From Candidatus Peribacteria bacterium RIFCSPHIGHO2_01_FULL_55_13 (lineage in GTDB: Bacteria; Patescibacteriota; Gracilibacteria; Peribacterales; Peribacteraceae), in assembly GCA_001788925.1 (NCBI GenBank), contig MFXS01000007.1:16078-67019 (forward strand): a stretch of DNA of 50,942 nucleotides, given 5' to 3'. This document shows positions 5,442-50,942 of this stretch, in pieces (position 1 is the first letter of the stretch; the number at the start of each line of letters is the position of its first letter). A model generated the notes under the pieces. That model was not told where the DNA came from. It made no database searches and saw nothing but the letters and a program-made list of their open reading frames with translations. A program made the position numbers and the translations under genes.

Positions 5442-6311
5442 TTAAAAAGGCAAATCTTCTACCTTCACCTCCGACTGATACTGCACCTCCGGAATAGATG
5501 CAGCTTCTACTCCAACCGGCGCCTCTTCGCGCTGCTCACGGGCAGCCCCGCCTTCTGGACGTGCCGGCGCTGCTCCGCGCGAAGAGACGGTTTCCTCGGC
5601 GATAGCATTGGCGACACCAAGCATGCTGAATTGATCGGCGACGATCTCCGTCGTCGTGCGCTTCGAACCGGTTTTCGTCTCCCACTGGCGGGACTGGACA
5701 CGGCCGGAGACAAAGACCTTGTAGCCTTTCTTCACCTGCTTGGCGACATCCTGGGCCAATGCGCCCCAAAGGACGACGTTGTGAAATTCTGTGCGCTCTT
5801 TCATTTCGCCGCTCTGGCGGTCCTTCCACTTTTCATTGCTGGCCACGCCGATGGAAAGGACGCTCTGTCCGCTCGTGGTGGTGCGCATCTCCGGGTCTTT
5901 CGTCACATTGCCGATAATTTCCGCGCGGTTCAGGCATTTGCCGAGTTCCATTCCTGCAGGGATGGCGCGCTGCCCATCTTTGGGGTCGAGCAAAATCATA
6001 TCCTGCGCGACAAGCTTGGTTTTGCTTTTCTTTTCGCCACTTTTTTCATCGTCCCAGGTGTCCGTCTGAAGGCGGCCACTGACGAATATCTGTCCGCCGG
6101 CGCGCAAATACTGCGAAGCGACTTCGGCCATGGCTCCCCACACGGTAACCGTGAAGAAGCCTTTGCCGGTGAGTTGCTCGCCCGTACCCGAGGTGAAGGA
6201 ATTAGGAACGACCAGGTTAAGATCGGTGACGGCCGTGCCGCCGGGAGTCTGACGGAGCTCTACCGGCTGCGTCTGGTATCCGATGAGGGATACGCGATTG
6301 AGAGAGAACAT
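5442..6311 (-). CDS. ssb: Single-stranded DNA-binding protein with two tandem OB folds
   Basis: MFSLNRVSLIGYQTQPVELRQTPGG...VTVWGAMAE...VSGRLQTDTW and CLNRAEIIGNVTKDPEMRTTTSG...NVVLWGALAQ...VSGRVQSRQW; acidic tail EVKVEDLPF. Confidence 0.93.
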   Translation of the reverse strand: MFSLNRVSLIGYQTQPVELRQTPGGTAVTDLNLVVPNSFTSGTGEQLTGKGFFTVTVWGAMAEVASQYLRAGGQIFVSGRLQTDTWDDEKSGEKKSKTKLVAQDMILLDPKDGQRAIPAGMELGKCLNRAEIIGNVTKDPEMRTTTSGQSVLSIGVASNEKWKDRQSGEMKERTEFHNVVLWGALAQDVAKQVKKGYKVFVSGRVQSRQWETKTGSKRTTTEIVADQFSMLGVANAIAEETVSSRGAAPARPEGGAAREQREEAPVGVEAASIPEVQYQSEVKVEDLPF

Positions 6312-6564: not shown

Positions 6565-6633
6565 GTTTCAGCGTTGTCAACTCCCCTTCACCATCCCCTA
6601 CACATAAACACGGTACAATCGGCGAAACGCGTC

Positions 6634-9600
6634 ATGCCCACTCCGTATTTTCTCAATCGCACATCTGCGATCCTCCTCGGCAGCGCTCTGATGCTCCTCA
6701 GTGCATCGGCCGCGGCCGCGCCACGGGCCACGGAAAATCTTCCCGAGCCGTACCGCATCCCGACAGCCTATCCTTCAAACATCGGCGAGATCCGCGATGT
6801 TACGGGAGATGCACTGCAGGGATGGGAAGGCGAAATCCATCAGGATCTTTCAGAGCGCGCGGTCTGCGGCGGATGGGACATGAGCGATACAGTGCAGGGT
6901 AAAATTCCCGTGGTGTCCGGAGTGCCGGGCCGCAAAGGTATTCCCTTGGGAAATATTCCTTCTGGCATGGCAGCGCGCGATGAAAGTAGTGGAGCGCTCG
7001 GAGACGGGTATCTCTACCCCGATGTCAGCGAGGTGAAAGGGTGGAGCACGGCATGCCAGGCGGGATTTCCTCCGTATCTGGATGACGGCCCGCCGTGCAA
7101 AGACCCCAACAATAAGAACTACGGCACCCCGAAACAATGTGAGGATTTGTGTCCGCGGATCAATGCCTGGCAGTTTCCGATTTGGGTAGTCATCTGGGTA
7201 CGGCCTGCACCCCTTGCTGATATGTCTATATGCGTGCAGCAGGGCAAGGGGGGGAAAGAGCTGAACTATGACTCCTTCAATGGAGACTGCTGTGAACGTA
7301 ATGGAACAGACGAAGAAACGGTATCTCCCGCCTACACACAATGCATGACAGAAGTGGGAGACGAGGCGTACTGCAGAGGTCTGTACCCTCCACAACCCGG
7401 AGTAAGTTGTGCAGGTAAATATGGGAGTGATGCAGACGACCCACGGCACGACCCCGGTCTTCCTGCAGATGCTAAATGCAACGAATCACCAGGTTTAGGT
7501 TATATACAAACCGCCGTGATCTTTTCTGGTTGGTATTACTGCTGCACGGGAGCAATTGTGAGAGAGTTGAATTACGATGATTGCAAGCTTGAAGATCCGG
7601 CTGCATGTGTAGCGCACAGCGATCCTCGGCGAAACTGTGTGCGGTGCGAGGGGGACGGTCTGCCAGTCCCCAATGGAGCGTCTCCGGCAAGGGATACTAA
7701 TGGTGATCTGATTCCGCGGGGGCCTGCGCCTCTCCGTCAAGAAACCGGTTGCCGCGCCGGGTACGACGCGACGATCGACGGCAATGTGATGAACCCGGGG
7801 AGATTCGTCTCCTACTACCGCGAATATCCCGTTGCGGGATACAGCCGCGATGCAGTGGATCAAGCTCCGAAAGATGTCACTGCCCGCCAGGGCGTTCCTG
7901 TCTCGTGTTACGGTTTTTACCGCGAATTTGATCCGAAGACCACCCGTACTGCCGATGCGGACTCGCGGTGTGTGATCGCCGCGTATCAATCGAACAATGA
8001 ATTCCGCCTCTTCTACAAAACCCAGCTCGGGCACGGCAGCTTCGGCGAGACGAGCGTATACCCCGACCCCGATCCGACGGCCGATACGGAAATCCGCGAT
8101 CCCGGCTTCAATGCCGACGAAGACCTCTGGTACCAGAACCTGGGAGGAGCCTTCAGTCTGCTGAATGGAAAAAAGTTTAAAGAGGCCGGACAGGACATCA
8201 CGTTCGCGCTGCTTTCGCTCGATTCCACGCTGGAGCGTGTGCGCGGTCCGATGCTCGCGCCCTCGGGCGCCTCGGCTGGTTCCGTTTCGTCCGGAAGAGG
8301 GCCGGATCCTTATGAAAGCATGCGTTCTCCCGGAGCGTTGCGCCGCGCGTTCGACGATTCCGTGAGCAACCAGCGCGGCCCCGCCCGTACGATCGCCGAG
8401 TGGTGGCAGAAACAGGAAACCGCCATGCAGGACGTGGTGCATCCCGCGGTCGCGCACATCATCTTTCCTTCTGCATGGAGCGCGAATCTCAATCTGCAGC
8501 ACCACTTCCCGAGCCCTGTTTTGCCCGAACCTCCCACAACGCCGGTTCCCCCGGGCAACTATGACCCGCGCAGAGACACGATCGAAGTGCAGACGGAATT
8601 GCGCGACGATCTTCTCGGGGAAGTCGCCTCATTTCTGGAAGAAGCTCTCATCGCTCCGGTGGAAGAGCGCAGTGTGACCATCGTGGTGCCCTTCGGTTCC
8701 GCGACGGACTTCCGCGCATACAAGGAGGGATGGGTGCGGTGGCAAAAGATGCGTGAAGACGCGGGGAAGCCGGTGCCCCCGGAGACGCAGCCGTTCATCG
8801 ACCGCCTGGAGGAATATGCCGTACAGATTGATGGAGCGCGGGCACTGCGGGGGCAACTGGCACGATCGCTGGCCGCATCACTGGAGCGCCAGGCGGATGC
8901 GGCGCAGGCGGTGCACGACTGGCTGGAAACGAATCTCGACGACTTCCGCGATTTCCAGCAGGAACGCCAGCAGAGGCAGCAACTCATCTACCGCTGGCGC
9001 GATCTTCAGACGGCGTACCGCAACTTCCACGACAAGACCAATATGCCTTGGTGCAAGAATGACGCGTTTACGACGCCCATCTACTCTCTGCTCGACTCCT
9101 GGATGCTGGGACGCCCGGATCTCAACGGACAGTCGCTTCCGCAGATCTCGTACCCTCGTCCGGAAGATGTGTACATCGATCTCTCCGTGTTCCAGACAGA
9201 CCAGGTTCCACTCGTTGTCCCTGTCTTAAAACCCGTGCAGATCCTGGTATCGCATGACATGTTAAGCCCGCCTTTCGTGTTCCAGGAAGAGGTCAGTATC
9301 CCCGTGCTTCCTCCACTCCCTCCTCTGCCGGATGCCGCTTCCAGCATGGTCGCGGCGATTCCCGACCTGGAAGTCGGTCCTGCGCTTTCCATCACCTTCC
9401 CCGATGTATCACTCGTCTTGAATGCCTACTCTCAATGTATGGAGGATGTGGGGGATGAGTCATACTGCCGCGCGCTCTATGGAGACAGCGACCCGTTGAT
9501 CTCGATGGAAAAACTTGTGGGTGGTATGAATGCCAAGTACAAACAATTCTGGGATGCTGTGACCAAACCACGCTGCGACACGGCGGAAGCCGCCAAGCGC

Positions 9601-10080
9601 TGCGCGGGAGCGGACCCGGCGGAAGGCGACTGCTGCGTGCAACCGGGAGAGGAGAAATACTGCAGGAGAGGATGGAATTCCGATACCTGCGTCCATGTGG
9701 AAATGGATCTCCTGGAACGCTTCACGCGAATCGGCGCACGGCCGGCCGTGCAACTTCTGGAAGATTTCCTGGTGATCGGCTCCTGGCGAACTCCTGGTAA
9801 CGCGAACGCGGATTTCCCGCCGTGTGACCCGCAAGACTGGGCCTGCTTGAACCTGCACGCCGTCCGCATGGAGCCCCGCTACGGATGGGGCGCGGAAATG
9901 AGCACGAGCAGCGCGGACGCCGCCATCGATGCCCTGCGCGCCCGGATGTTCCAGGAAACATTGCAATCGCCGCAGTTCCCCTATCAGGCCCCCTCCGAAA
10001 CCATTGTCCCATCGTTTGATGTCCGCCCGCCGCTTGATCTGTCGCCCCTCTCGCCTTCCCCCTCCATAATTTCTCCGTGA
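6634..10080 (+). CDS. Large secreted Cys-rich protein of unknown function, gene 1 of a coupled block
   Basis: Signal peptide MPTPYFLNRTSAILLGSALMLLSASAAAA; two copies of YxQCMxxVGDExYCRxLY. Confidence 0.88.
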   Translation: MPTPYFLNRTSAILLGSALMLLSASAAAAPRATENLPEPYRIPTAYPSNIGEIRDVTGDALQGWEGEIHQDLSERAVCGGWDMSDTVQGKIPVVSGVPGRKGIPLGNIPSGMAARDESSGALGDGYLYPDVSEVKGWSTACQAGFPPYLDDGPPCKDPNNKNYGTPKQCEDLCPRINAWQFPIWVVIWVRPAPLADMSICVQQGKGGKELNYDSFNGDCCERNGTDEETVSPAYTQCMTEVGDEAYCRGLYPPQPGVSCAGKYGSDADDPRHDPGLPADAKCNESPGLGYIQTAVIFSGWYYCCTGAIVRELNYDDCKLEDPAACVAHSDPRRNCVRCEGDGLPVPNGASPARDTNGDLIPRGPAPLRQETGCRAGYDATIDGNVMNPGRFVSYYREYPVAGYSRDAVDQAPKDVTARQGVPVSCYGFYREFDPKTTRTADADSRCVIAAYQSNNEFRLFYKTQLGHGSFGETSVYPDPDPTADTEIRDPGFNADEDLWYQNLGGAFSLLNGKKFKEAGQDITFALLSLDSTLERVRGPMLAPSGASAGSVSSGRGPDPYESMRSPGALRRAFDDSVSNQRGPARTIAEWWQKQETAMQDVVHPAVAHIIFPSAWSANLNLQHHFPSPVLPEPPTTPVPPGNYDPRRDTIEVQTELRDDLLGEVASFLEEALIAPVEERSVTIVVPFGSATDFRAYKEGWVRWQKMREDAGKPVPPETQPFIDRLEEYAVQIDGARALRGQLARSLAASLERQADAAQAVHDWLETNLDDFRDFQQERQQRQQLIYRWRDLQTAYRNFHDKTNMPWCKNDAFTTPIYSLLDSWMLGRPDLNGQSLPQISYPRPEDVYIDLSVFQTDQVPLVVPVLKPVQILVSHDMLSPPFVFQEEVSIPVLPPLPPLPDAASSMVAAIPDLEVGPALSITFPDVSLVLNAYSQCMEDVGDESYCRALYGDSDPLISMEKLVGGMNAKYKQFWDAVTKPRCDTAEAAKRCAGADPAEGDCCVQPGEEKYCRRGWNSDTCVHVEMDLLERFTRIGARPAVQLLEDFLVIGSWRTPGNANADFPPCDPQDWACLNLHAVRMEPRYGWGAEMSTSSADAAIDALRARMFQETLQSPQFPYQAPSETIVPSFDVRPPLDLSPLSPSPSIISP

Positions 10081-10952
10081 GCCGCCCTCTCTTTTTCCGC
10101 CGGCTTCCCGCGGGGTTCTGCGCCTTGCTTCTGGTATGCGCGCTTCTGCCGCGGCAAGCCGGAGCAAGTCATACGTCGGACTACCCGGCATGCCGCGACG
10201 CCCTGGATTGGCAGGGCTGGAAGGAGCAGCGCCTCTGGCGCGCCACACTCTTCGGCGTCAAGCGGGCGCGTGAGGCGGAAGCATCTGAAGTGCGGTTTTC
10301 AAAAGACCGCAGCATCTGGATCAAGTCTCACATCAGCGCCGGCGGCACCTCCGCCGTGGATGAGTGGCGCTCGCTCTCTCCAGGATACGAAAGCGTCACG
10401 TGGTACAACTCCCTCATCGACAGCCAGACCGATATCACCCCGCGCCGCGGCATCTTCGACACACGCCAGCGGATGTCCTCAGAATTGGTCCCCTACATCA
10501 CGCAGTCGTACCGCAGTTTGGAATGCCGCCTTGAGGCGATCTGTGAACTACTTGCGCTTTCGGAGCCCCACAAAGAGCACTCCCCGCAGACGGTGACCGT
10601 GAAAGTTTTTGGCTGTGGGGATATGCCTGCAAAGACCCTCCCGGAATGTCATCTGGAAAGTAACCCCACCCAGCTCACCACCCAGGGCGACATCCACCAG
10701 TACTGCCAGACGATGATCGCGACGATCCGGAAGCGGGAGACGCAGATCGCAAAACTCGTGATGGAGTACGACGCCGGATACCGTTCGATCCTGCAGCTTT
10801 CCGGCATTATGCGGGGATTCCTCGGCGAAATGCGCGGAACAGTGCTTGGGTCGCTGCGCGGAGCGACGGACCTGATTACCACCTTCAGCCGCGTACCGTG
10901 CTTCATCGGTTCCTGCGACGATGCTCCCGCCACAATGATGACTTCCCCATAA
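10077..10952 (+). CDS. Secreted protein of unknown function, gene 2 of the block
   Basis: GTGA overlap; signal peptide LPAGFCALLLVCALLPRQAGA. Confidence 0.85.
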   Translation: MSRPLFFRRLPAGFCALLLVCALLPRQAGASHTSDYPACRDALDWQGWKEQRLWRATLFGVKRAREAEASEVRFSKDRSIWIKSHISAGGTSAVDEWRSLSPGYESVTWYNSLIDSQTDITPRRGIFDTRQRMSSELVPYITQSYRSLECRLEAICELLALSEPHKEHSPQTVTVKVFGCGDMPAKTLPECHLESNPTQLTTQGDIHQYCQTMIATIRKRETQIAKLVMEYDAGYRSILQLSGIMRGFLGEMRGTVLGSLRGATDLITTFSRVPCFIGSCDDAPATMMTSP

Positions 10953-11863
10953 TGCCCATGCCATGGCGACTGCTTCTCATCGGCATGACACTGACCGCCG
11001 GCCTCGCGCACGCCGCGGAGTGGGAACAGCCGTACCCGAAGCTCGGGTCATGCACCAAGAAAGATACGATCGCCTTTTTTGACCCCCGGTACGCGCAGTG
11101 CATGGAAGACACGGGCGACGAGGCCTATTGCTCTTCGTTGTATCCGGTCACGTCGCTGCCGTTTGATCAATGGGCGACCACGTATCACGGGAACATCAAC
11201 CGCGTTGTGGAGGATTTTCTGGGGCAGACCGAAGAGGACCACCTGGCGCTACGGAGGCGGGGATCGGGCCCGGTATCCTGCACACAGCAAAGCGACCGCG
11301 CCTCCCCGCTGATTGCCGCAATCGCCCACACGCTCGAGCCGTGGGAAAACGGACCGGCAACCTTTTACCAATCGGACACCGCGCCCGTGCTTCTGGAATA
11401 TCTGCGCGTCTATGAGTGCAGCCTCATCGAGAGATCACTGTCTCTCCCCATAGAAATCTGGCGGGAGGAAGACGCGCGCGGACGGTTGCTGCCGGCAGGA
11501 CTCCCGGGCAATCCCCTCTTTTTCATGAACATTTGGGTGCTATGGGCGGGGCAATCGGAGCATATCCGCAGGGAAATGGCCATCGCCCGTCCCACGCTGG
11601 AACGGGCGCTGTCATTTATGGGCACCGTGCACATGACACGGATGCTGGAACGCGATACCGAGTGCATCCAGCGCGCCTCGCTCGACATCCGCAATGCCTT
11701 CGCGCTTTCCGCGGATACCGCGGCGTGCATGCCCAGAATCTGGAACGCGAAGGATCCTCTTCGCAACACCCCCGCGTGCGCCGACAATCTCGACAATGAC
11801 AATGACGGAGCCACGGATCTCGATGACACCGGCTGCGACTCTCTTACCGACATGACCGAATGA
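10952..11863 (+). CDS. Secreted Cys-rich protein, gene 3 of the block, with C-terminal Asn/Asp calcium-binding-like motif
   Basis: TAATG overlap; signal peptide MPMPWRLLLIGMTLTAGLAHA; YAQCMEDTGDEAYCSSLYP; CADNLDNDNDGATDLDDTGCDS. Confidence 0.85.
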   Translation: MPMPWRLLLIGMTLTAGLAHAAEWEQPYPKLGSCTKKDTIAFFDPRYAQCMEDTGDEAYCSSLYPVTSLPFDQWATTYHGNINRVVEDFLGQTEEDHLALRRRGSGPVSCTQQSDRASPLIAAIAHTLEPWENGPATFYQSDTAPVLLEYLRVYECSLIERSLSLPIEIWREEDARGRLLPAGLPGNPLFFMNIWVLWAGQSEHIRREMAIARPTLERALSFMGTVHMTRMLERDTECIQRASLDIRNAFALSADTAACMPRIWNAKDPLRNTPACADNLDNDNDGATDLDDTGCDSLTDMTE

Positions 11864-14388
11864 GACGCTCTTCTTTTATCAGCGGCATAGCCCTCGCGTT
11901 GCTACTCTCCTTTGGAGCGGTCCCCGCAGATTCCGCCCGCGCCGCCGATTTGACGCTCTACATGCGCCTGAAGACGATCTCGGAAAAGCAGGTGCTGGGA
12001 GATGTGGAGCCCGACATCGCGGCGTACGTGCAGTCGCTCGTGCAGTCGCAGTACGACGACACTCTTGCTCTGGACGACATCAGCGTCGCTGCGCGCGCGC
12101 CGGGCGCATTTCAGGGGCGCTGCGGCGCCCGGGGAATCCAGGCGAGCAAATGCGCGGATCTGGAACGGCAGATCCGCCGCCTGGTGGAACGTGAAGAGCG
12201 GGTGCGAAAACTGGGAAGAGATCTCTTCCTCACAACCGGGAGCTATGAGGTCCCACTCAGCGAATCTCTTGGGAAATTTGCGGCGGTAAGCCCCCCCTTG
12301 GGAAGCCTGCTCACTATCTGGGAATCGGGGAGCGACCGTGCGGTGAATCCCGATGCGTTCGTCCATACCACTGCGGCGCCCCTCCCCGATCCCGACGGCA
12401 AGACGGAAGACGCCTACACGGAGTTGAAGGATGCACTGGACGCGTTGGTAGAAGATGCCGGCGGCCCGAAGGAGGACTTGAGTGAGCTTGCCGCGGCGGT
12501 GGCGCGCTACCGGTTCGGCTATACAGCGGTGCGCAGCGAGGGATCCTGCGACGCCGCGATCGGCGGGATTGGTGAACTGAGCCAGCTCACGCAGCGTTGG
12601 TGCGCGCTCGAAGACGAACTGCACGACGTCTGGAACCATCTTCATGCCAGTCTTACCGCGCGGCCGCTGCCCCCGGACAGCAGCGAAGTCGTCTTCTTCC
12701 CTACCTGGCTCTTCAAGGACATCAACGTGGTGGTCTGGGCCACCAACCGCGACGTGGGAATAGAGTGGGAGATCCCGCTCGAGCCCGTCCTGCCGTGGTT
12801 GATGGATGACCGCGAGTATCAGACCTGCATGGAGGAAAATAATGACGACGAAGCCTATTGCTCCTCCCGTTTCCCGCCTGTCCCTATTCCGGGCGGTGCG
12901 CTTTTGAATCCGCCCGATCCTCCCCCCTTCGCAACGGGAGTCTGCGGCATGCCCCTGGGAAGCCGGGGATTTCTCTGCCAGCCCATCGAACAACATGAAT
13001 GCGCCATCGCACTGGCGCCGAACGGCTCCAGTAATGCAACGGGTACGGGCCTCTATCTCACTTCCTGCAAGGAACCCATCTTACAAACGCCCGTCCGGAT
13101 GAGCTTTGCGGGACCGGATGTCTGCGGCGTGGGTGGTTGGCGCATGCAGACGGAGCCGGCATCCGAGCCCGACAATCCTGGGGTGCAGACGGGATTGCTT
13201 CCGACTCAATGCAGTAATTGCTCGGTGGACATCTACTGCTCATCCTCATGTCCTGAAGGTGGAGCATATACCGATGCGCGCGACGCAAGCGGCCGCATTG
13301 GGATTTGTATTCCGGAAACGATCCAGGGAAGCACAGCAATTTTTCAGACTCTTATTCTCCACGAACTTGTCCACGCACAGCAGACCTGCAGCAACCCGCG
13401 CGAGATTCTGACCGGCGACCTCAACTACTGCTGCAGCAGCGAATACCAGGCGTACCTCGTGCAGTGCATCGCGTTCGCCGAAGACGGCATTCTTCAGGAC
13501 ATGCAGGTGACGCATCAGGGAAAGCGCATCAATGTCACGCCGGAGCTCTGCGCGGCCACGCTGAGCACCCTAAGTTGTTCCTCGCTCGGACAGTGCAGCG
13601 AGTCGCCCATTCCGCCGGCGGAGATGAAACAGGCAATGCTTGAGGCAGTGGAGCGCAGCAAGAGCCGCCTGAATCTTCCCGTCAGCTGCGCCGATGCCGT
13701 GAACAGAATGGATACGCGCTCGAAGGCGATCCTCGCCTCCCTGCCAAAGGCATGCACGCCCGAATGCCGCAGCGAATTTGAAAACACCATCGGCAACAAT
13801 CTCTGCTTCATCGGACAGTGCATTGAGCAGTCATGGGAGGAAGAACGGATTGTGCCGGGAAGAATGTCTCTAAATGTGGGCGACGAAGCGTTCCCGTGGG
13901 ACAGCTGCATCGGCGCGGAGCCCGCCGCCAATACCGATCTTCCCGCATCGTCGCTTTTGATGCTTCCCACCCTAGCGTTCCCCCCCCTTCCCGACTACCG
14001 GCCGTGGGACATCGCCAATAGCACAGACATTGCGCTCTGCCAGCTGCTGGGGCTGCCCGCACGCACACCACCGACTCTCTGCGCTGCTGAAGTCTCACGC
14101 CAGCTCAGCCGGCCCCTCAGTGATCCACTGGACATGATGATCAACCTTGCGGCGTCCGTGGAAGACCAGCTCGATCCGGCGGTGGAACTGGAGCGCATGG
14201 CTCCGAACGTCGGCACGCGGTATGCCACCTCCCTCTACCGCACCCAGCTCGGGGCTTTGCGCCGCGCATTCGCCGAAATCTTTGACGGTGCCGCGGTGAT
14301 GCTGGAGGAAATCAGCAAGACCTCTTTCCCCGAGCAGGCCTGTTCCCGCGTGGATGGCACGTGCCCCTTCCTCCCCTCTGCGCCGTGA
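11860..14388 (+). CDS. Secreted Cys-rich protein with HExxH (putative zinc metalloprotease), gene 4 of the block
   Basis: ATGA overlap; signal peptide; LILHELVHAQQ; YQTCMEENNDDEAYCSSRFP. Confidence 0.85.
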   Translation: MRRSSFISGIALALLLSFGAVPADSARAADLTLYMRLKTISEKQVLGDVEPDIAAYVQSLVQSQYDDTLALDDISVAARAPGAFQGRCGARGIQASKCADLERQIRRLVEREERVRKLGRDLFLTTGSYEVPLSESLGKFAAVSPPLGSLLTIWESGSDRAVNPDAFVHTTAAPLPDPDGKTEDAYTELKDALDALVEDAGGPKEDLSELAAAVARYRFGYTAVRSEGSCDAAIGGIGELSQLTQRWCALEDELHDVWNHLHASLTARPLPPDSSEVVFFPTWLFKDINVVVWATNRDVGIEWEIPLEPVLPWLMDDREYQTCMEENNDDEAYCSSRFPPVPIPGGALLNPPDPPPFATGVCGMPLGSRGFLCQPIEQHECAIALAPNGSSNATGTGLYLTSCKEPILQTPVRMSFAGPDVCGVGGWRMQTEPASEPDNPGVQTGLLPTQCSNCSVDIYCSSSCPEGGAYTDARDASGRIGICIPETIQGSTAIFQTLILHELVHAQQTCSNPREILTGDLNYCCSSEYQAYLVQCIAFAEDGILQDMQVTHQGKRINVTPELCAATLSTLSCSSLGQCSESPIPPAEMKQAMLEAVERSKSRLNLPVSCADAVNRMDTRSKAILASLPKACTPECRSEFENTIGNNLCFIGQCIEQSWEEERIVPGRMSLNVGDEAFPWDSCIGAEPAANTDLPASSLLMLPTLAFPPLPDYRPWDIANSTDIALCQLLGLPARTPPTLCAAEVSRQLSRPLSDPLDMMINLAASVEDQLDPAVELERMAPNVGTRYATSLYRTQLGALRRAFAEIFDGAAVMLEEISKTSFPEQACSRVDGTCPFLPSAP

Positions 14389-16004
14389 TGCGTCTACTCA
14401 GACATCTGACGGCAGGAATGGCAGGAAGGTTAGGAAAGGTCTTTTTTGTTCTGGTAATCATTCCTGGAAACGCCTCTGCGCTCACAGTCGACGAGATCGT
14501 CGCGATCCCCCCCGTCTCCGACCACTACGTGCAGCGCGTGCTCGACCGAGCAAATGCGGGAATCGCCCAGGCCGACACCATGTCTGCGCCGGGCGGTCCC
14601 ATTTTCGATATGTTCAAGCCGTGGTTTATCTTCTTCGCCACAAGCGCGATGCTCAGCACGGTGGATACGCGCATGCAGGTTACGAATATGCAGCGCGACC
14701 TCATGGAGGCCACGCCGTGCCTGCATCTGGATGTCGTCATCCTGCAGTCGAAGGTGGAAAAGGTGCGCCAGGAAATGCACACCGCCCTCGACGCCGGACA
14801 GCCGTATAAAATGGTGTATCTGCAGCAGCTCATCCGTTTTCTTAACGCCCGCACGGATCAACTGATGCGCGGAGCTAGGGATCCGCTGTATGAGGACACG
14901 ACCTGGGCGAAGGGACAGGTATTCGATCCGCCCAACCCCGTTTGGTGCTGCCCCGCGGGCATTCCGGGAAACACCTGCACGTTCACGGACGATGCGGTCT
15001 GCATCGCGGATGGGGGAAATCCCTTCACGACCCCCCGGGCATGTCAGGAGTACGGGTGCCTTTTGCCGGATTCCCAAAATCCGCTCGAGGGAAAGCTCTG
15101 CCCGTTCCATTCCGATTACCTGCCCCCCGCGGTCTCGGGATACGGATGTGATCTTGATGCGTTACCCGGTGAAGCATTGGGCCATACGCCGACCGCAGCG
15201 GAGATGGGTGCGCTCGCCGAACTCATTCTGCAGCGCGATGTGTTCGTAACGCGCCTGCAGAACTTTGCGCCGCTCGCGGAGGAGATCGACGCGATGAGCG
15301 GCGTGGACCCGGACTATGCGTCGCTCGGCAGCGGCCTCTCACGTGAGCACGGAGAAGCGTTCGGATGCCTGCAGGACATGGACCTGGCTCGACAGATCGG
15401 GGCCACGTCGCTGCTGCAGGCGATGCCCGCGGGATCCGCGGAAACCCGGGGCGCTTTTTCCATCCCCAAAAACGAACCCTGGATCATGGTTCGGCTCTCG
15501 GCGCTCCTGCAGCAATGGGGACAACGCCGGCCGCAGGCGAAAGATCTGCGTTACCCGCCGGAATTCCCGCCGGGACCCGAACGCGACGATGCCGAGGTGC
15601 GCGAGGAAGCCAAGCCCACACTCTTCAAGGCGCGCGACTGGTACGTGCGCACGGTCTTCCAGTCCTGGAACACCTATCATGGAAAAAAGGAGGCGATCTC
15701 GCTGGCGGCTTCTCAGGACAATATCCTCCAGATACAGGAGGCCTCGCCGCAGATGAACGCGGTCACGCAGCGTCTGCGCGCGCTCACACAGAATCACGCG
15801 CAGGGGGTGCGTTCTTTTGCAAAAGGCTTCGCCTACTACCTGCGCCGCTCCTGCATCTACCGCCCCTGTAACGCCAAGCTCGACCAGGTGCTCCGGATCG
15901 TCTTTCAGAATTCCTGTTTCCCCTATGCAAGCGGGCTCTATTTCGGCAATGAGGATGCGCATGAGGATTGCCGGGAGGACGCGGAAATCACTGTCAGCCC
16001 CTGA
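14388..16004 (+). CDS. Secreted Cys-containing protein of unknown function, gene 5 of the block
   Basis: TGATG overlap; signal peptide LGKVFFVLVIIPGNASA; CCPAGIPGNTCTFTDDAVC. Confidence 0.85.
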   Translation: MRLLRHLTAGMAGRLGKVFFVLVIIPGNASALTVDEIVAIPPVSDHYVQRVLDRANAGIAQADTMSAPGGPIFDMFKPWFIFFATSAMLSTVDTRMQVTNMQRDLMEATPCLHLDVVILQSKVEKVRQEMHTALDAGQPYKMVYLQQLIRFLNARTDQLMRGARDPLYEDTTWAKGQVFDPPNPVWCCPAGIPGNTCTFTDDAVCIADGGNPFTTPRACQEYGCLLPDSQNPLEGKLCPFHSDYLPPAVSGYGCDLDALPGEALGHTPTAAEMGALAELILQRDVFVTRLQNFAPLAEEIDAMSGVDPDYASLGSGLSREHGEAFGCLQDMDLARQIGATSLLQAMPAGSAETRGAFSIPKNEPWIMVRLSALLQQWGQRRPQAKDLRYPPEFPPGPERDDAEVREEAKPTLFKARDWYVRTVFQSWNTYHGKKEAISLAASQDNILQIQEASPQMNAVTQRLRALTQNHAQGVRSFAKGFAYYLRRSCIYRPCNAKLDQVLRIVFQNSCFPYASGLYFGNEDAHEDCREDAEITVSP

Positions 16005-16064: not shown

Positions 16065-19000
16065 ATGAAGCCCTCCGACTTCGTCCATCTCCACTGTCAC
16101 TCCACCTATTCCCTCCTCGAGGCGCTGCCTTCGCCAGAAGAAATCGCGGAGCGCGCAAAAGAACTGGGGCAGAGCGCGGCGGGCATCGGCGACAAGGGAT
16201 TCGGGTACGGGCTCGTGGAATTCTATAAAGCCTGCAAGGCCCACAGCATCAAGCCTGTGCTCGGCATAGAAGTTTTCGTCGCCGCACGGACGCGCAACGA
16301 CAAAGAGAGTGGCGTGGATACGAAGCGTTCCCCTCTGTATCTGATCGCCGAGAATAATGAGGGATATGAAAATCTTCTGGAGTTGATCACGAAGGCCGCC
16401 GTCGAAGGCATGTACTACAAGCCGCGGGTGGATAAAGAACTTCTCAAGCAATATGGAAAGGGACTGATCGCGCTCTCGGGCTCTATCAGCGGCGCGATTC
16501 CACAGGCCGCTCTCGCGGAAGATGCCGAGCGGCTGAAAGCGCTTGTGGAGGAATATCGCGGATACTTCGGCAAAGACAATGTGTATTTTGAGTTGATGGA
16601 CCTGCCGAGCGTGCCGGGCCAGAGCGAGGCAAATCAGCAGCTGATCCACTGGGGAAAAGAGTTGGGCGTTCCGGTCGTGGCCACCTGCAACGCGCACTAC
16701 TGCAGGCCCGGGGACGCCGAGGCCCATGATGTGCTTCTCTGTATCCAGAAAAACGCGCAGGTCGGCGACCCGAGCAGGTTTTCCATGCGCGATACCGACT
16801 ATTCGATGCGCCCGTTTGAAGAAATGGAAAAAGCTTTCGCGCACGCGCCCGAGGCGTTGAGCAACACGCGGGTGATTGCGGACCGCTGCAACATCGAACT
16901 GCAATTTTCCTCGTACCACATCCCCCGCTTTCCCGTCCCCAAGGGAACCACGGAAGCCAAGGAACTCCGCAGACTGACCGAGGAGGGATTTGCGAAGAAG
17001 TATCCCAAGCCCACGAAGGAACATCAGGAACGGATGGACTACGAACTCAAAATCATCGAGCAGGTCGGCTTCGCCGGATACTTCCTCATCGTCGCGGACT
17101 TCGTGAATGAAGCGAAGCGCCGGGAGATCACGGTAGGGCCAGGCCGTGGCAGCGCCGCCGGATCGATGGTCTCGTATTGCCTCGGTATCACGGGCTTGGA
17201 CCCGATTGAGCACGGCCTCCTCTTTGAGCGCTTCCTCAACCCCGAACGCATCACCATGCCTGATGTGGATATCGACTTTGCCGATACGCGGCGTGACGAA
17301 GTGCTGGAGTACGTTCGCCAGAAGTACGGGCAGGACAGAGTGGTCCAGATCTGCACATTCGGAACACTCGCCGCGCGCGCCGCGGTGAAAGATGTCGGCC
17401 GCGCCTACGGTGTCCCCTTCCTGGAGATGAACGCGCTCGTGAAGCTGATCCCGGACAGGCCGGGGACGACGCTTGAAGAAGCCCTGAATACGCACGAATT
17501 AAAATCGATCTACCAGGAAAACGAAATTTATCGCCGTATTTTTGACGCAGCCAAGAAGCTCGAAGGCAAAGCACGCCACGTTTCGGTGCATGCCTGCGGC
17601 GTCATCATCACACCGGAGCCCGCGGTGCATTACACCGCACTCCAGCGTGCTCCCAAAGATGAAAACATCATCATCACGCAGACCTCGGCGAAGCCTCTGG
17701 AGTCGCTGGGACTCCTTAAGATGGACTTCCTCGGGCTCATGAACCTCACGGTGATCCAGACGACACTGGAGATTATCGAGCGCCTGAGCGGGGAGAAGAT
17801 CGACATCACGAAAATCCCGATGGATGACCAGAAGTCCTTTGCGTTGCTGCAGCGCGGAGACACCACCGGAGTGTTTCAGCTGGAATCCGCGGGCATGCGG
17901 CGATATCTGAAACAACTGAAACCCACCGCCTTCAATGACATTGTCGCGATGGTGGCTTTATACCGCCCGGGCCCCATGGACTGGATCCCGCAGTATATCA
18001 AACGCAAGCACGGCCACGAAAAAGTGGAGTACGTCCACGACGACTTGAGGACGATCCTCGAGCCCACCTACGGCATCGGCGTGTATCAGGAACAGATCCT
18101 TGAGATCGCGCGCACATTCGCGGGATTCAGCCTCGGTGAAGCCGATATCCTGCGTCGCGCCATCGGAAAGAAGATCAAGGAGGAGCTTGCGTCCCAGCGC
18201 GAGAAGTTCCTCGCGGGATCGGTGAAAAAGGGATACAAGCGCCAGCTCGCCGAGCGGATTTTTGACGACGTCGTGACGCCCTTCGCCGGCTACGGCTTCA
18301 ACAAGTCACATGCCGCCGGGTACGCCAAGATCGCCTACGAGACGGCGTACTTGAAAGCGAACTACCCGACGGAGTTCATGGCTGCGCTTTTAAGTAGTGA
18401 TGCCGCCGATACGGACCGCGTGATGATCGAGATCGAGGAATGCCGCGCAATGGGGATTGATGTCCTTCCTCCTGATATCAATGAGTCTTTGCGTCATTTC
18501 ACCGCCATACCGGCAAATGGAAAATTGCAAATGGCAAATGGCAAATCCTTGGGTTCCATCCGCTTTGGTCTTTCAGCGGTGAAAGGAATCGGCAACAGTT
18601 CCGTGGAGCAGATCATCACCGCGCGCGGAGAGAAAAAATTCGAAAGCCTGGATGATTTTGCGCGCCGCGTGCCCACGAAGGCACTCAATAAAAAGCTCCT
18701 CGAGTCGCTCGCCAAATCCGGAGCGCTCGATTCCCTCGGCGAACGCGGAACGCTGGTGGAGCACTACAATCTGATCGTCGATTACGCGAAGGCTGCGGGC
18801 GACGTGAGCCGTTCTCAGGGGGATCTCTTTGGGGCGGCAAGTATGGAGGAAGCACGGATCACCTTCCCGAAGTCCGTGCCTGCCTCCTTGCAGCAAATGC
18901 TTCAGTGGGAAAAGGAAACACTTGGGATGTACGTGAGCAGCCACCCGCTTGCGGGCCTCAAGAAATACATCGGCAAAAAGGCGCAGCTCATCGCCAATCT

Positions 19001-19844
19001 CACACGCGAGGATGCTGGCAAGAAGATCACCCTCGCTGGCATCGTGGAGGGCGTCAAACGCATCACCACAAAGAAAGGAGAAACGATGGCGATTGTATTT
19101 CTGGAAGATCCCACCGGGAAAATTGAAGTAACACTCTTCCCGCGCACGTTTGCAGAAGCCGCGGCATTCATCGAGCAGCCCGATACTGTTTTGGTAGTCG
19201 CGGGCATTCTGGATGTGCGCGCCGGAATGCTCCAGATGCGCGTGGACGCCGTAAAGCGCGCCTCGCTCACAACGATGATTACAAAAGCCCGCGAAGCCGG
19301 ATTCTTCGACGAAGAGGAGGCCAAACAGGGCATCCGCCTGGTGCGGCCGCAAGTGGAAGCAGAAGCCATCGACGCGGTGGATGAAGAAGGTAATGTCATC
19401 GCCGGTGAAGTCGTGACGCTCGGAAATGAAGTGGTGGAAAATGGTAATGACGCGGACGATTTCTTCGGCCCCATCGGCAAATGGATTCTCCAGGGTATGC
19501 CTACCGAAAAAGAGCTGGCGTCTTTGGGATTGGTGGATGGGACATCTTCTCTTGTGGGGCAGGATAGTGATCCTCTCGCGACAAATCGCAAATCGCAAAT
19601 CGCAAATAGTAAATCGTCTCCCTCCTCTTCAAGTCCGATCCGCATTTATACGATTGATCTTCCCGAGCGCGCCCCGAAGAAACTCCTGCTCGATCTTAAG
19701 CGTGTCTTGGAAATGTTCCCCGGAAGCGAAAAAGTGCAGCTTAAAATCGGCGAGCAAAAGATTGATCTCCCCCTCACGGTGACCACGTCGACGATCCTGG
19801 AGAAGAAAGTGGAGGAAGCCATCGCGGAGCATATGGTCACCTAA
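16065..19844 (+). CDS. dnaE: DNA polymerase III subunit alpha
   Basis: PHP N-terminus DFVHLHCHSTYSLLEA; GPGRGSAAGS; PDVDIDFAD; GYGFNKSHAAGYA. Confidence 0.97.
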   Translation: MKPSDFVHLHCHSTYSLLEALPSPEEIAERAKELGQSAAGIGDKGFGYGLVEFYKACKAHSIKPVLGIEVFVAARTRNDKESGVDTKRSPLYLIAENNEGYENLLELITKAAVEGMYYKPRVDKELLKQYGKGLIALSGSISGAIPQAALAEDAERLKALVEEYRGYFGKDNVYFELMDLPSVPGQSEANQQLIHWGKELGVPVVATCNAHYCRPGDAEAHDVLLCIQKNAQVGDPSRFSMRDTDYSMRPFEEMEKAFAHAPEALSNTRVIADRCNIELQFSSYHIPRFPVPKGTTEAKELRRLTEEGFAKKYPKPTKEHQERMDYELKIIEQVGFAGYFLIVADFVNEAKRREITVGPGRGSAAGSMVSYCLGITGLDPIEHGLLFERFLNPERITMPDVDIDFADTRRDEVLEYVRQKYGQDRVVQICTFGTLAARAAVKDVGRAYGVPFLEMNALVKLIPDRPGTTLEEALNTHELKSIYQENEIYRRIFDAAKKLEGKARHVSVHACGVIITPEPAVHYTALQRAPKDENIIITQTSAKPLESLGLLKMDFLGLMNLTVIQTTLEIIERLSGEKIDITKIPMDDQKSFALLQRGDTTGVFQLESAGMRRYLKQLKPTAFNDIVAMVALYRPGPMDWIPQYIKRKHGHEKVEYVHDDLRTILEPTYGIGVYQEQILEIARTFAGFSLGEADILRRAIGKKIKEELASQREKFLAGSVKKGYKRQLAERIFDDVVTPFAGYGFNKSHAAGYAKIAYETAYLKANYPTEFMAALLSSDAADTDRVMIEIEECRAMGIDVLPPDINESLRHFTAIPANGKLQMANGKSLGSIRFGLSAVKGIGNSSVEQIITARGEKKFESLDDFARRVPTKALNKKLLESLAKSGALDSLGERGTLVEHYNLIVDYAKAAGDVSRSQGDLFGAASMEEARITFPKSVPASLQQMLQWEKETLGMYVSSHPLAGLKKYIGKKAQLIANLTREDAGKKITLAGIVEGVKRITTKKGETMAIVFLEDPTGKIEVTLFPRTFAEAAAFIEQPDTVLVVAGILDVRAGMLQMRVDAVKRASLTTMITKAREAGFFDEEEAKQGIRLVRPQVEAEAIDAVDEEGNVIAGEVVTLGNEVVENGNDADDFFGPIGKWILQGMPTEKELASLGLVDGTSSLVGQDSDPLATNRKSQIANSKSSPSSSSPIRIYTIDLPERAPKKLLLDLKRVLEMFPGSEKVQLKIGEQKIDLPLTVTTSTILEKKVEEAIAEHMVT
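18513..18549 (+). repeat. CAAATNG heptanucleotide repeat inside dnaE (copy 1)
   Basis: gcaaatggaaaattgcaaatggcaaatggcaaatc encodes ANGKLQMANGKS. Confidence 0.9.
19581..19617 (+). repeat. CAAATNG heptanucleotide repeat inside dnaE (copy 2)
   Basis: acaaatcgcaaatcgcaaatcgcaaatagtaaatcg encodes TNRKSQIANSKS. Confidence 0.9.
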
Positions 19845-50078: not shown

Positions 50079-50942
50079 TCACGATTGGTAGGACGTGCTC
50101 TTTACGGTGGTATCTGGATACTCAATCCAACTGAATTGAGTTGAGCCACCATTGTCTCGATCGAGCCACCGGATGAACCCCGGATCATCCAATTGCAGAG
50201 AAACCTGCAGAGATGATACTTGTGTTGACGTGTTGGGGTTCGTCACATTCACCTGGAGAACAAACGTTTTATCTTCGCCCTGGCTGATTTCCGTATCAAC
50301 CAACGAGGCATCTAGCCCCGTGAAGATAACCCGGAATGATCCGGTAATCGTTCCACTGGCAGCAGTCGCCGTGCCGTCCAACCGCTCCAAGCGGTACGTA
50401 CTGGATGAAACGGTTGCATCCGCCTTATTGATGAAGCGGAATGCTCCAGCATCCATGGCCACGTTCACGGCATTCACCGTAAACGTGAGCTGGTCCACAA
50501 CGACCTTATTCAGGCCGTTCTGTGTGTTCGTGTTCGCCGCTGCGGCGAATTTGAACTGGCCAACATTGCTGGGCCCCGTCGGAACGGCAGTGCCGTTCGC
50601 GTCGGGGTTGACGTTCACTATCGAACTAATCTTCGACATCACCACGGTGTGGTAGGGTCCCACAATATCCGCGGCGATATCCGCGGCGATATCATTTGAT
50701 GAGATACCTCCTTGAGCGAACACCGCATCGACGTCCGCGGCAAACGTGTCACCACGAACTCCTCCGTTTGTGTCAGCATTGACTCGAACCTTGATAATTA
50801 CATCTTGGTTCGAGCCTTTACCAACAACCAATTCTCGATTCGGCATACGGAAACCGTAGTTGTCACCAGTGATGGCTCCAGCTTTGGTCCCCACCGCGAA
50901 CGGTGTTGTAGCTCCCGGTAGGAAAGCTTCCAGCCGGTCGAT
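50079..50942 (-). CDS. Surface/secreted beta-rich repeat protein, N-terminus beyond window
   Basis: Frame open to window end (...RLEAFLPGATTPFAVGTKAGAITGDNYGFRM); Thr/Val/Asn-rich. Confidence 0.7.
   Translation of the reverse strand: MDRLEAFLPGATTPFAVGTKAGAITGDNYGFRMPNRELVVGKGSNQDVIIKVRVNADTNGGVRGDTFAADVDAVFAQGGISSNDIAADIAADIVGPYHTVVMSKISSIVNVNPDANGTAVPTGPSNVGQFKFAAAANTNTQNGLNKVVVDQLTFTVNAVNVAMDAGAFRFINKADATVSSSTYRLERLDGTATAASGTITGSFRVIFTGLDASLVDTEISQGEDKTFVLQVNVTNPNTSTQVSSLQVSLQLDDPGFIRWLDRDNGGSTQFSWIEYPDTTVKSTSYQS

Follow-up and report, generated by a model that had tools for sequence, protein, structure and literature searches.

Giant exported proteins with integrin/FG-GAP, DUF11 or SLH domains have been reported from the same broad group of bacteria as the locus described here, in Vampirococcus and other Absconditabacteria (PMC8080830, PMC13059738) and in Peregrinibacteria (PMC11573180). 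Vampirococcus is a predator, and its giant surface proteins, which reach 4163 amino acids and contain integrin and DUF11 domains, have been proposed to build the fibrous surface through which it binds its host (PMC8080830). The Peregrinibacteria are enriched in huge proteins of more than 5000 amino acids (PMC11573180), and the Peribacteria are rich in large Cys-rich exported proteins; the set reported for Candidatus Peribacter riflensis centres on a 14-gene cluster encoding proteins with 7.2% Cys (PMC4736985).

The DNA analysed here, referred to as the window, is a stretch of 50 942 nucleotides (contig C7, positions 16078–67019) of the 1.17 Mb genome of an uncultured Candidatus Peribacteria bacterium. 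It contains a block of five genes, p1–p5, that resembles the C. Peribacter riflensis set in lineage, export, the presence of Cys and the lack of an assigned function. The block differs from that set in its moderate Cys content (2.7–3.9%), and no repeats of the riflensis kind occur in the window. Like SLH-anchored giant adhesins, the homologues of p1 elsewhere in the class contain SLH, Ig-like, FG-GAP and TSP3 domains, whereas the Peribacteria p1 lacks such domains and is accompanied by four co-conserved partner proteins. The longest Vampirococcus protein, at 4163 amino acids, is close to the giants of about 4.0–4.2 kaa found here in recoded genomes, a likeness in size. The reports on Absconditabacteria and Peregrinibacteria list giants singly, without a conserved core, four accessory genes or a short form in Peribacteria, and no earlier description of the five-gene set was found among open-licence papers. 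The p1–p5 protein families are new; giant surface proteins accompanied by partners are, as a kind, already known in part, and there is a real chance that the set represents a new machine.

The five-gene block and its conservation in Peribacteria

The five genes (Table 1) together encode about 3.1 kaa. The first-pass annotation had described five consecutive ORFs of these sizes between ssb and dnaE in a CPR organism, with stop/start overlaps of 1–4 nt and a signal peptide in each product, and this description holds: all five lie on the same strand and the junctions are, in order, CCGTGA (4 nt overlap), TAATG (1 nt), ATGA (4 nt) and TGATG (1 nt). By a hydropathy heuristic, which was used for the export call in place of SignalP, each protein begins with a hydrophobic signal-type segment and has almost no transmembrane-like segment beyond it; the same arrangement is seen in 38–48 of the 45–49 orthologues of each gene. 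Scans for promoters and terminators gave results at chance level. At the edge of the window, an ORF on the opposite strand (50079–50894) resembles a repetitive surface or S-layer-type protein.

Table 1. Features of the five-gene block and its surroundings (window coordinates).
Feature	Position	Strand	Description
ssb	5442–6311	-	Upstream flank of block
p1	6634–10080	+	1148 aa with 32 Cys, predicted exported protein; putative core subunit and homologue of class giants; alternative upstream TTG start possible at 6574
p1, Cys-hairpin module copy 1	7333–7386	+	YTQCMTEVGDEAYCRGLY
p1 core, about aa 584–1000	8383–9633 (3' boundary approximate)	+	Helical region followed by an extended segment rich in Cys and proline; homologous to the core of the giants
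p1, Cys-hairpin module copy 2	9427–9480	+	YSQCMEDVGDESYCRALY
p2	10077–10952	+	291 aa, predicted exported protein, 10 Cys
p3	10952–11863	+	303 aa, predicted exported protein, 10 Cys; upstream GTG at 10898
p3, Cys-hairpin module	11090–11143	+	YAQCMEDTGDEAYCSSLY
p4	11860–14388	+	842 aa, predicted exported protein, 33 Cys
p4, Cys-hairpin module	12817–12873	+	YQTCMEENNDDEAYCSSRF
p4, metallopeptidase-like domain, aa 427–580	13138–13599	+	HELVH at 13360–13374, then CCxxE
p5	14388–16004	+	538 aa, predicted exported protein, 15 Cys; upstream GTG at 14361
dnaE	16065–19844	+	Downstream flank of block

A 20-residue Cys hairpin with the pattern YxxCMxxxGDEAYCxxLY occurs four times in the genome of the window, each time within the block. 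Congeneric relatives have the module at the p3 and p4 sites, and both p1 copies are seen in the window alone. The CM..GDEAYC module was considered as a mobile insert, a reading that was set aside because the copies are diverged at the DNA level and confined to this block. The module seems to spread among the partners of one block, and its presence in several of them, in copies that differ in DNA sequence, may point to a role in docking or cross-linking.

When p4 was used as the query of a protein search, 32 of 59 related genomes gave relatives, and all five genes are found in the same order and place in some 30 genera (gltX ... murB–ssb–p1–p5–dnaE), with the short overlaps between genes likewise kept. 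The p1 profile is positive in 48 of the 56 genomes of the family and a 49th (G195) has a strongly diverged version of the block; the synteny survey supports inheritance of the five genes as one unit. In Peribacteria p1 is mostly 920–1350 residues long, with a maximum of 1570. Divergence is greatest at third codon positions (32, 22 and 59% at positions 1, 2 and 3, respectively, for p4 compared with locus L043), and the block is under protein-level selection and is not a product of chance. The rate of evolution of p1–p5 is two to three times that of dnaE, and identities between genera are 30–40% compared with about 72% for dnaE. The most conserved alignment columns are mainly Cys, Gly, Trp and Arg, and eight Cys of p2 are kept throughout the family. 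The p4 position of the diverged G195 block (L174, 9005–16876) is occupied by a protein of 2623 residues, 259 of them Cys, that contains no fewer than 11 myxo_disulf_rpt repeats.

Four genomes (G009, G012, G028 and G248; loci L175–L178) have an intact empty site in which murB, an ssb-like ORF and dnaE stand side by side. The five genes are thus gained or lost together, and the flanking replication genes do not depend on them. The negatives in G254, G230 and G237 may not reflect true absence, as dnaE lies there at or near a contig end.

The absence of a recognizable family, which was part of the original description, was confirmed in that none of the five proteins matched a Pfam or NCBIfam model above the cut-off and profile searches of the PDB gave nothing beyond coiled-coil or chance matches; the one partial exception is an HExxH domain of p4 that resembles Peptidase_M76 below the threshold. 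Against the NCBIfam myxo/acidic disulfide-repeat model, p3 scores 19.1 bits for a cut-off of 41, which is reached solely by the protein at the p4 position of G195. The AlphaFold2 model of p1 (42 sequences, mean pLDDT 69.1, pTM 0.66) contains an 85-residue helix (residues 718–802) followed by a proline-rich part. The model of p4 has a mean pLDDT of 69.7, with values near 90 in the metallopeptidase-like part. Fold searches with these whole models gave no match with E < 0.1; both models are of medium confidence and new folds are not thereby proven. The best fold match of p4, a zinc-peptidase structure (PDB entry 4l7a), has an E value of 0.23 and is not significant.

Relation to the giant proteins of the class

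In other families of the class, the p1 profile also matched the middle part of very long ORFs. Alignment of p1 with the whole giants using hhalign covers 370 columns with a probability of 99.6 and an E value of 4.3e-24. A profile of the shared giant/p1 core (A8, 357 positions) is found in 179 of the 244 genomes of the class. Of these, 169 lie outside the Peribacteria family, and the giants occur in most of the other families, recoded ones among them. The open frames that carry this core are mostly 3,000–5,800 residues long; one open frame of 7,874 residues also contains the giant core (G037, contig C6, near 105399–106496). Across the phylum, A8 matches 27 of 384 genomes, all of the same class except for two marginal matches, and there is next to no sign of the core elsewhere in the phylum. 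The p5 profile (A5) matches the Peribacteria family alone across the phylum. Single-sequence or within-family searches taken by themselves therefore make the block look restricted to the family.

In many genomes the frame of the giant is interrupted by TGA alone. At the corresponding positions Gly predominates in the non-recoded giants (312 columns, compared with 14 for the next residue and a background of 149 in 1037), which indicates that the recoded genomes read TGA as glycine. This is the code used by BD1-5/Gracilibacteria and Absconditabacteria.

The giants contain FG-GAP repeats together with Ig-like and TSP3 domains, and SLH domains were found near the C-terminus in two of the class giants. 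The p1 of the window, being a shortened form, has neither the giant size nor the SLH and FG-GAP domains of the class system, and it matched no Pfam domain and no SLH or adhesin domain. The giants have a conserved N-terminal domain of their own (alignment A9; for example L075, 1727–2470) with the motifs IGDVPLPVV...PYTDF...IWHGVI, for which no relative was found in Pfam or the PDB. A C25/caspase-like reading of this domain, suggested by the order of its motifs, is not supported by either database. Profile searches of the PDB with the giant core and with the N-terminal domain gave coiled-coil or chance matches only.

Downstream of the giant, the non-recoded families have four exported ORFs of about 180–280, 220–350, 380–920 and 340–515 residues. 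When p1–p5 were compared with positions 1–5 of these giant operons using hhalign, the probabilities along the diagonal were 99.3, 94.9, 95.9, 62.1 and 89.2, where the values for positions 4 and 5 come from alignments of short segments and p4 (62–68) is the weakest. All 20 off-diagonal cells remain at or below 3.3, and reversed or column-shuffled controls at or below 1.4. This clean diagonal, with its low off-diagonal and control values, indicates that the five-gene systems are ancestral to the class. On the basis of these alignments, the Peribacteria block is best read as a version, diverged and reduced in length, of a five-gene set that centres on a giant surface protein and occurs across the class.

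A profile of the position-4 protein matches 165 of the 244 class genomes, all of them outside the Peribacteria family. In recoded genomes the position-4-like gene is often on another contig than the giant, so the set persists where the operon has been broken up. In some families, for example L166, no adjacent partner genes were seen beside the giant. Five position-4 proteins (L078, L072, L113, L157 and L158) contain a CxxCH motif; binding of a c-type heme was considered and dropped, as the His is replaced in about half of the position-4 proteins.

The metallopeptidase-like domain of p4

The p4 protein of the window contains the pattern HELVHAQQTC ... CCSSE, in which an HExxH motif is followed by a downstream Cys and Glu as in Peptidase M76 (ATP23; PF09768). 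The two share the Cys-rich metallopeptidase pattern HELVHA..C...CCxxE. Unlike Peptidase M76, the domain of p4 scores below the Pfam cut-off, is placed within a larger exported protein and does not occur in all members. In the Pfam search, Peptidase_M76 was the family matched most often, below the cut-off and by five of 29 members (best E value 4.9e-4; best individual scores 18.9 and 14.3 for a gathering cut-off of 25.2) and was not detected in the p4 of the window. DUF6782 is a second match below the cut-off, in further members. The fold of the domain is likely to be that of a zincin-type peptidase, judging from its motifs and model, with a putative activity.

The HExxH..CCxxE pattern is intact in 32 domains, of which 29 are in p4, two in p1 and one in a lone protein. 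HExxH is lost in six p4 proteins, and the domain was not detected in the p4 of about 10–12 otherwise complete blocks. In L035 and L082 the domain is in p1 instead of p4, which shows that it moves between neighbouring genes. Being eroded, lost or moved to p1 in this way, the domain is an accessory feature, and catalytic activity of p4 cannot be general across the system. In G009, which has lost the block, an HExxH..CCxxE domain is found in a separate protein of 1076 residues and 66 Cys (L039, 9229–12459).

Possible function of the five-gene set

The reading that we prefer, and to which we give an even chance, is that the block encodes a Sec-exported, disulfide-stabilized cell-surface complex of five subunits for cell-surface contact, the shortened Peribacteria form of a class-ancestral system. 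The five precursors would cross the membrane by Sec and p1–p5 would become cross-linked by disulfides, assembling around the helical, proline-rich core of p1 with the smaller p2, p3 and p5 bracing this core. The finished structure would stand on or in the S-layer and contact other cells or surfaces, and in most Peribacteria the zinc-peptidase-like domain of p4 may trim surface proteins belonging either to the partner or to the complex. An extracellular, disulfide-braced assembly is suggested by the SLH anchor, FG-GAP and Ig-like domains of the giants together with the lack of transmembrane segments and the Cys pattern, while the contact role is argued from the biology of the lineage, as the broader group includes the predator Vampirococcus. 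Co-inheritance and fixed gene order in about 48 genomes, the coupling overlaps, the signal-type N-termini, the homology to the giant operons position by position and the 25 SLH matches elsewhere in the genome are consistent with such a complex. On the other side, several Peribacteria have a clean site without the block, which is thus not needed by all, the Peribacteria p1 itself is without an adhesin or SLH domain, and the whole-model fold searches give no functional hint. Of the stoichiometric extracellular or envelope complex first proposed for this block, export, co-inheritance and the lack of a known counterpart stand, and the proposal widens to a class-wide set; physical association of the proteins, their stoichiometry and a role in attachment or uptake are proposals.

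A purely structural envelope lattice, in which p1–p5 form part of the S-layer or outer coat with no specific contact role, is doubtful but is the strongest of the alternatives. It would suit a class-wide, single-copy system with SLH domains in its giants and a disulfide-rich sequence that changes as fast as the identities between genera indicate. Five distinct subunits with a central giant and a peptidase-like domain would be unusual for a lattice, however, and the block is cleanly lost in some genera. The genome of the window also has many other SLH proteins, with 25 SLH matches spread over many genes. It is less probable that p2–p5 are extracytoplasmic assembly factors, acting as chaperones or in the processing of p1 and further Cys-rich exported proteins without belonging to the final structure. 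The largely helical appearance of p2, p3 and p5, two of which are short, would fit such a role, as would the protease-like domain of p4 in many species and the separation of the giant from p4-like genes in recoded genomes. Yet no enzyme active site is common to all members, the four accessory genes adjoin p1 in most families and not general folding genes, and no VKOR was found in the genome of the window.

The intact HExxH..CCxxE in the p4 of 29 loci and the p1 of two more could also point to an extracellular digestive or nutrient-uptake complex around the p4 peptidase. We regard this as improbable, given that the domain is eroded in six and absent from about ten otherwise complete blocks and that no sign of it was found at position 4 of the giant operons. 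A captured structural module of a prophage or plasmid, or a known secretion or pilus system in disguise, is scarcely credible. A block of exported proteins without a family name might raise this thought, but its chromosomal place between murB/ssb and dnaE is fixed across the family, a search of viral contigs and plasmids with p4 and of a viral fold library with the p1 model gave no relative, and neither an ATPase nor an inner-membrane gene is present. F-type conjugation includes Cys-rich exported sets (TraN/TraU/TraH), and these were dropped as candidates for lack of a Pfam hit and of an ATPase or membrane partner in the block. The first-pass annotation had looked to strong matches with a known secretion or pilus system as the sign of a described system; Pfam and transmembrane scans of the block found no type IV pilus protein, no type II or type IV secretion ATPase and no inner-membrane platform protein.

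Tentatively, and with less confidence than in the cell-surface complex itself, the set may be a class-ancestral surface machine of several subunits, kept through genome reduction and a change of code, that grips and feeds on hosts, with the Peribacteria block as its minimal and experimentally tractable form. This compact form can be expressed and imaged, and the four natural deletions of the block are useful as controls. The set also joins the uncharacterized giants of the class in a single orthologous system, which has a defined core and four proteins as partners. The candidate is present in most genomes of one class of small, probably host-dependent bacteria, which seems to include lineages of known predators (from published phylogeny and the members with TGA as glycine), and the remainder of the phylum has almost no trace of it. 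The means by which CPR bacteria hold on to other cells and exploit them have long been sought, and a five-part candidate can now be named.
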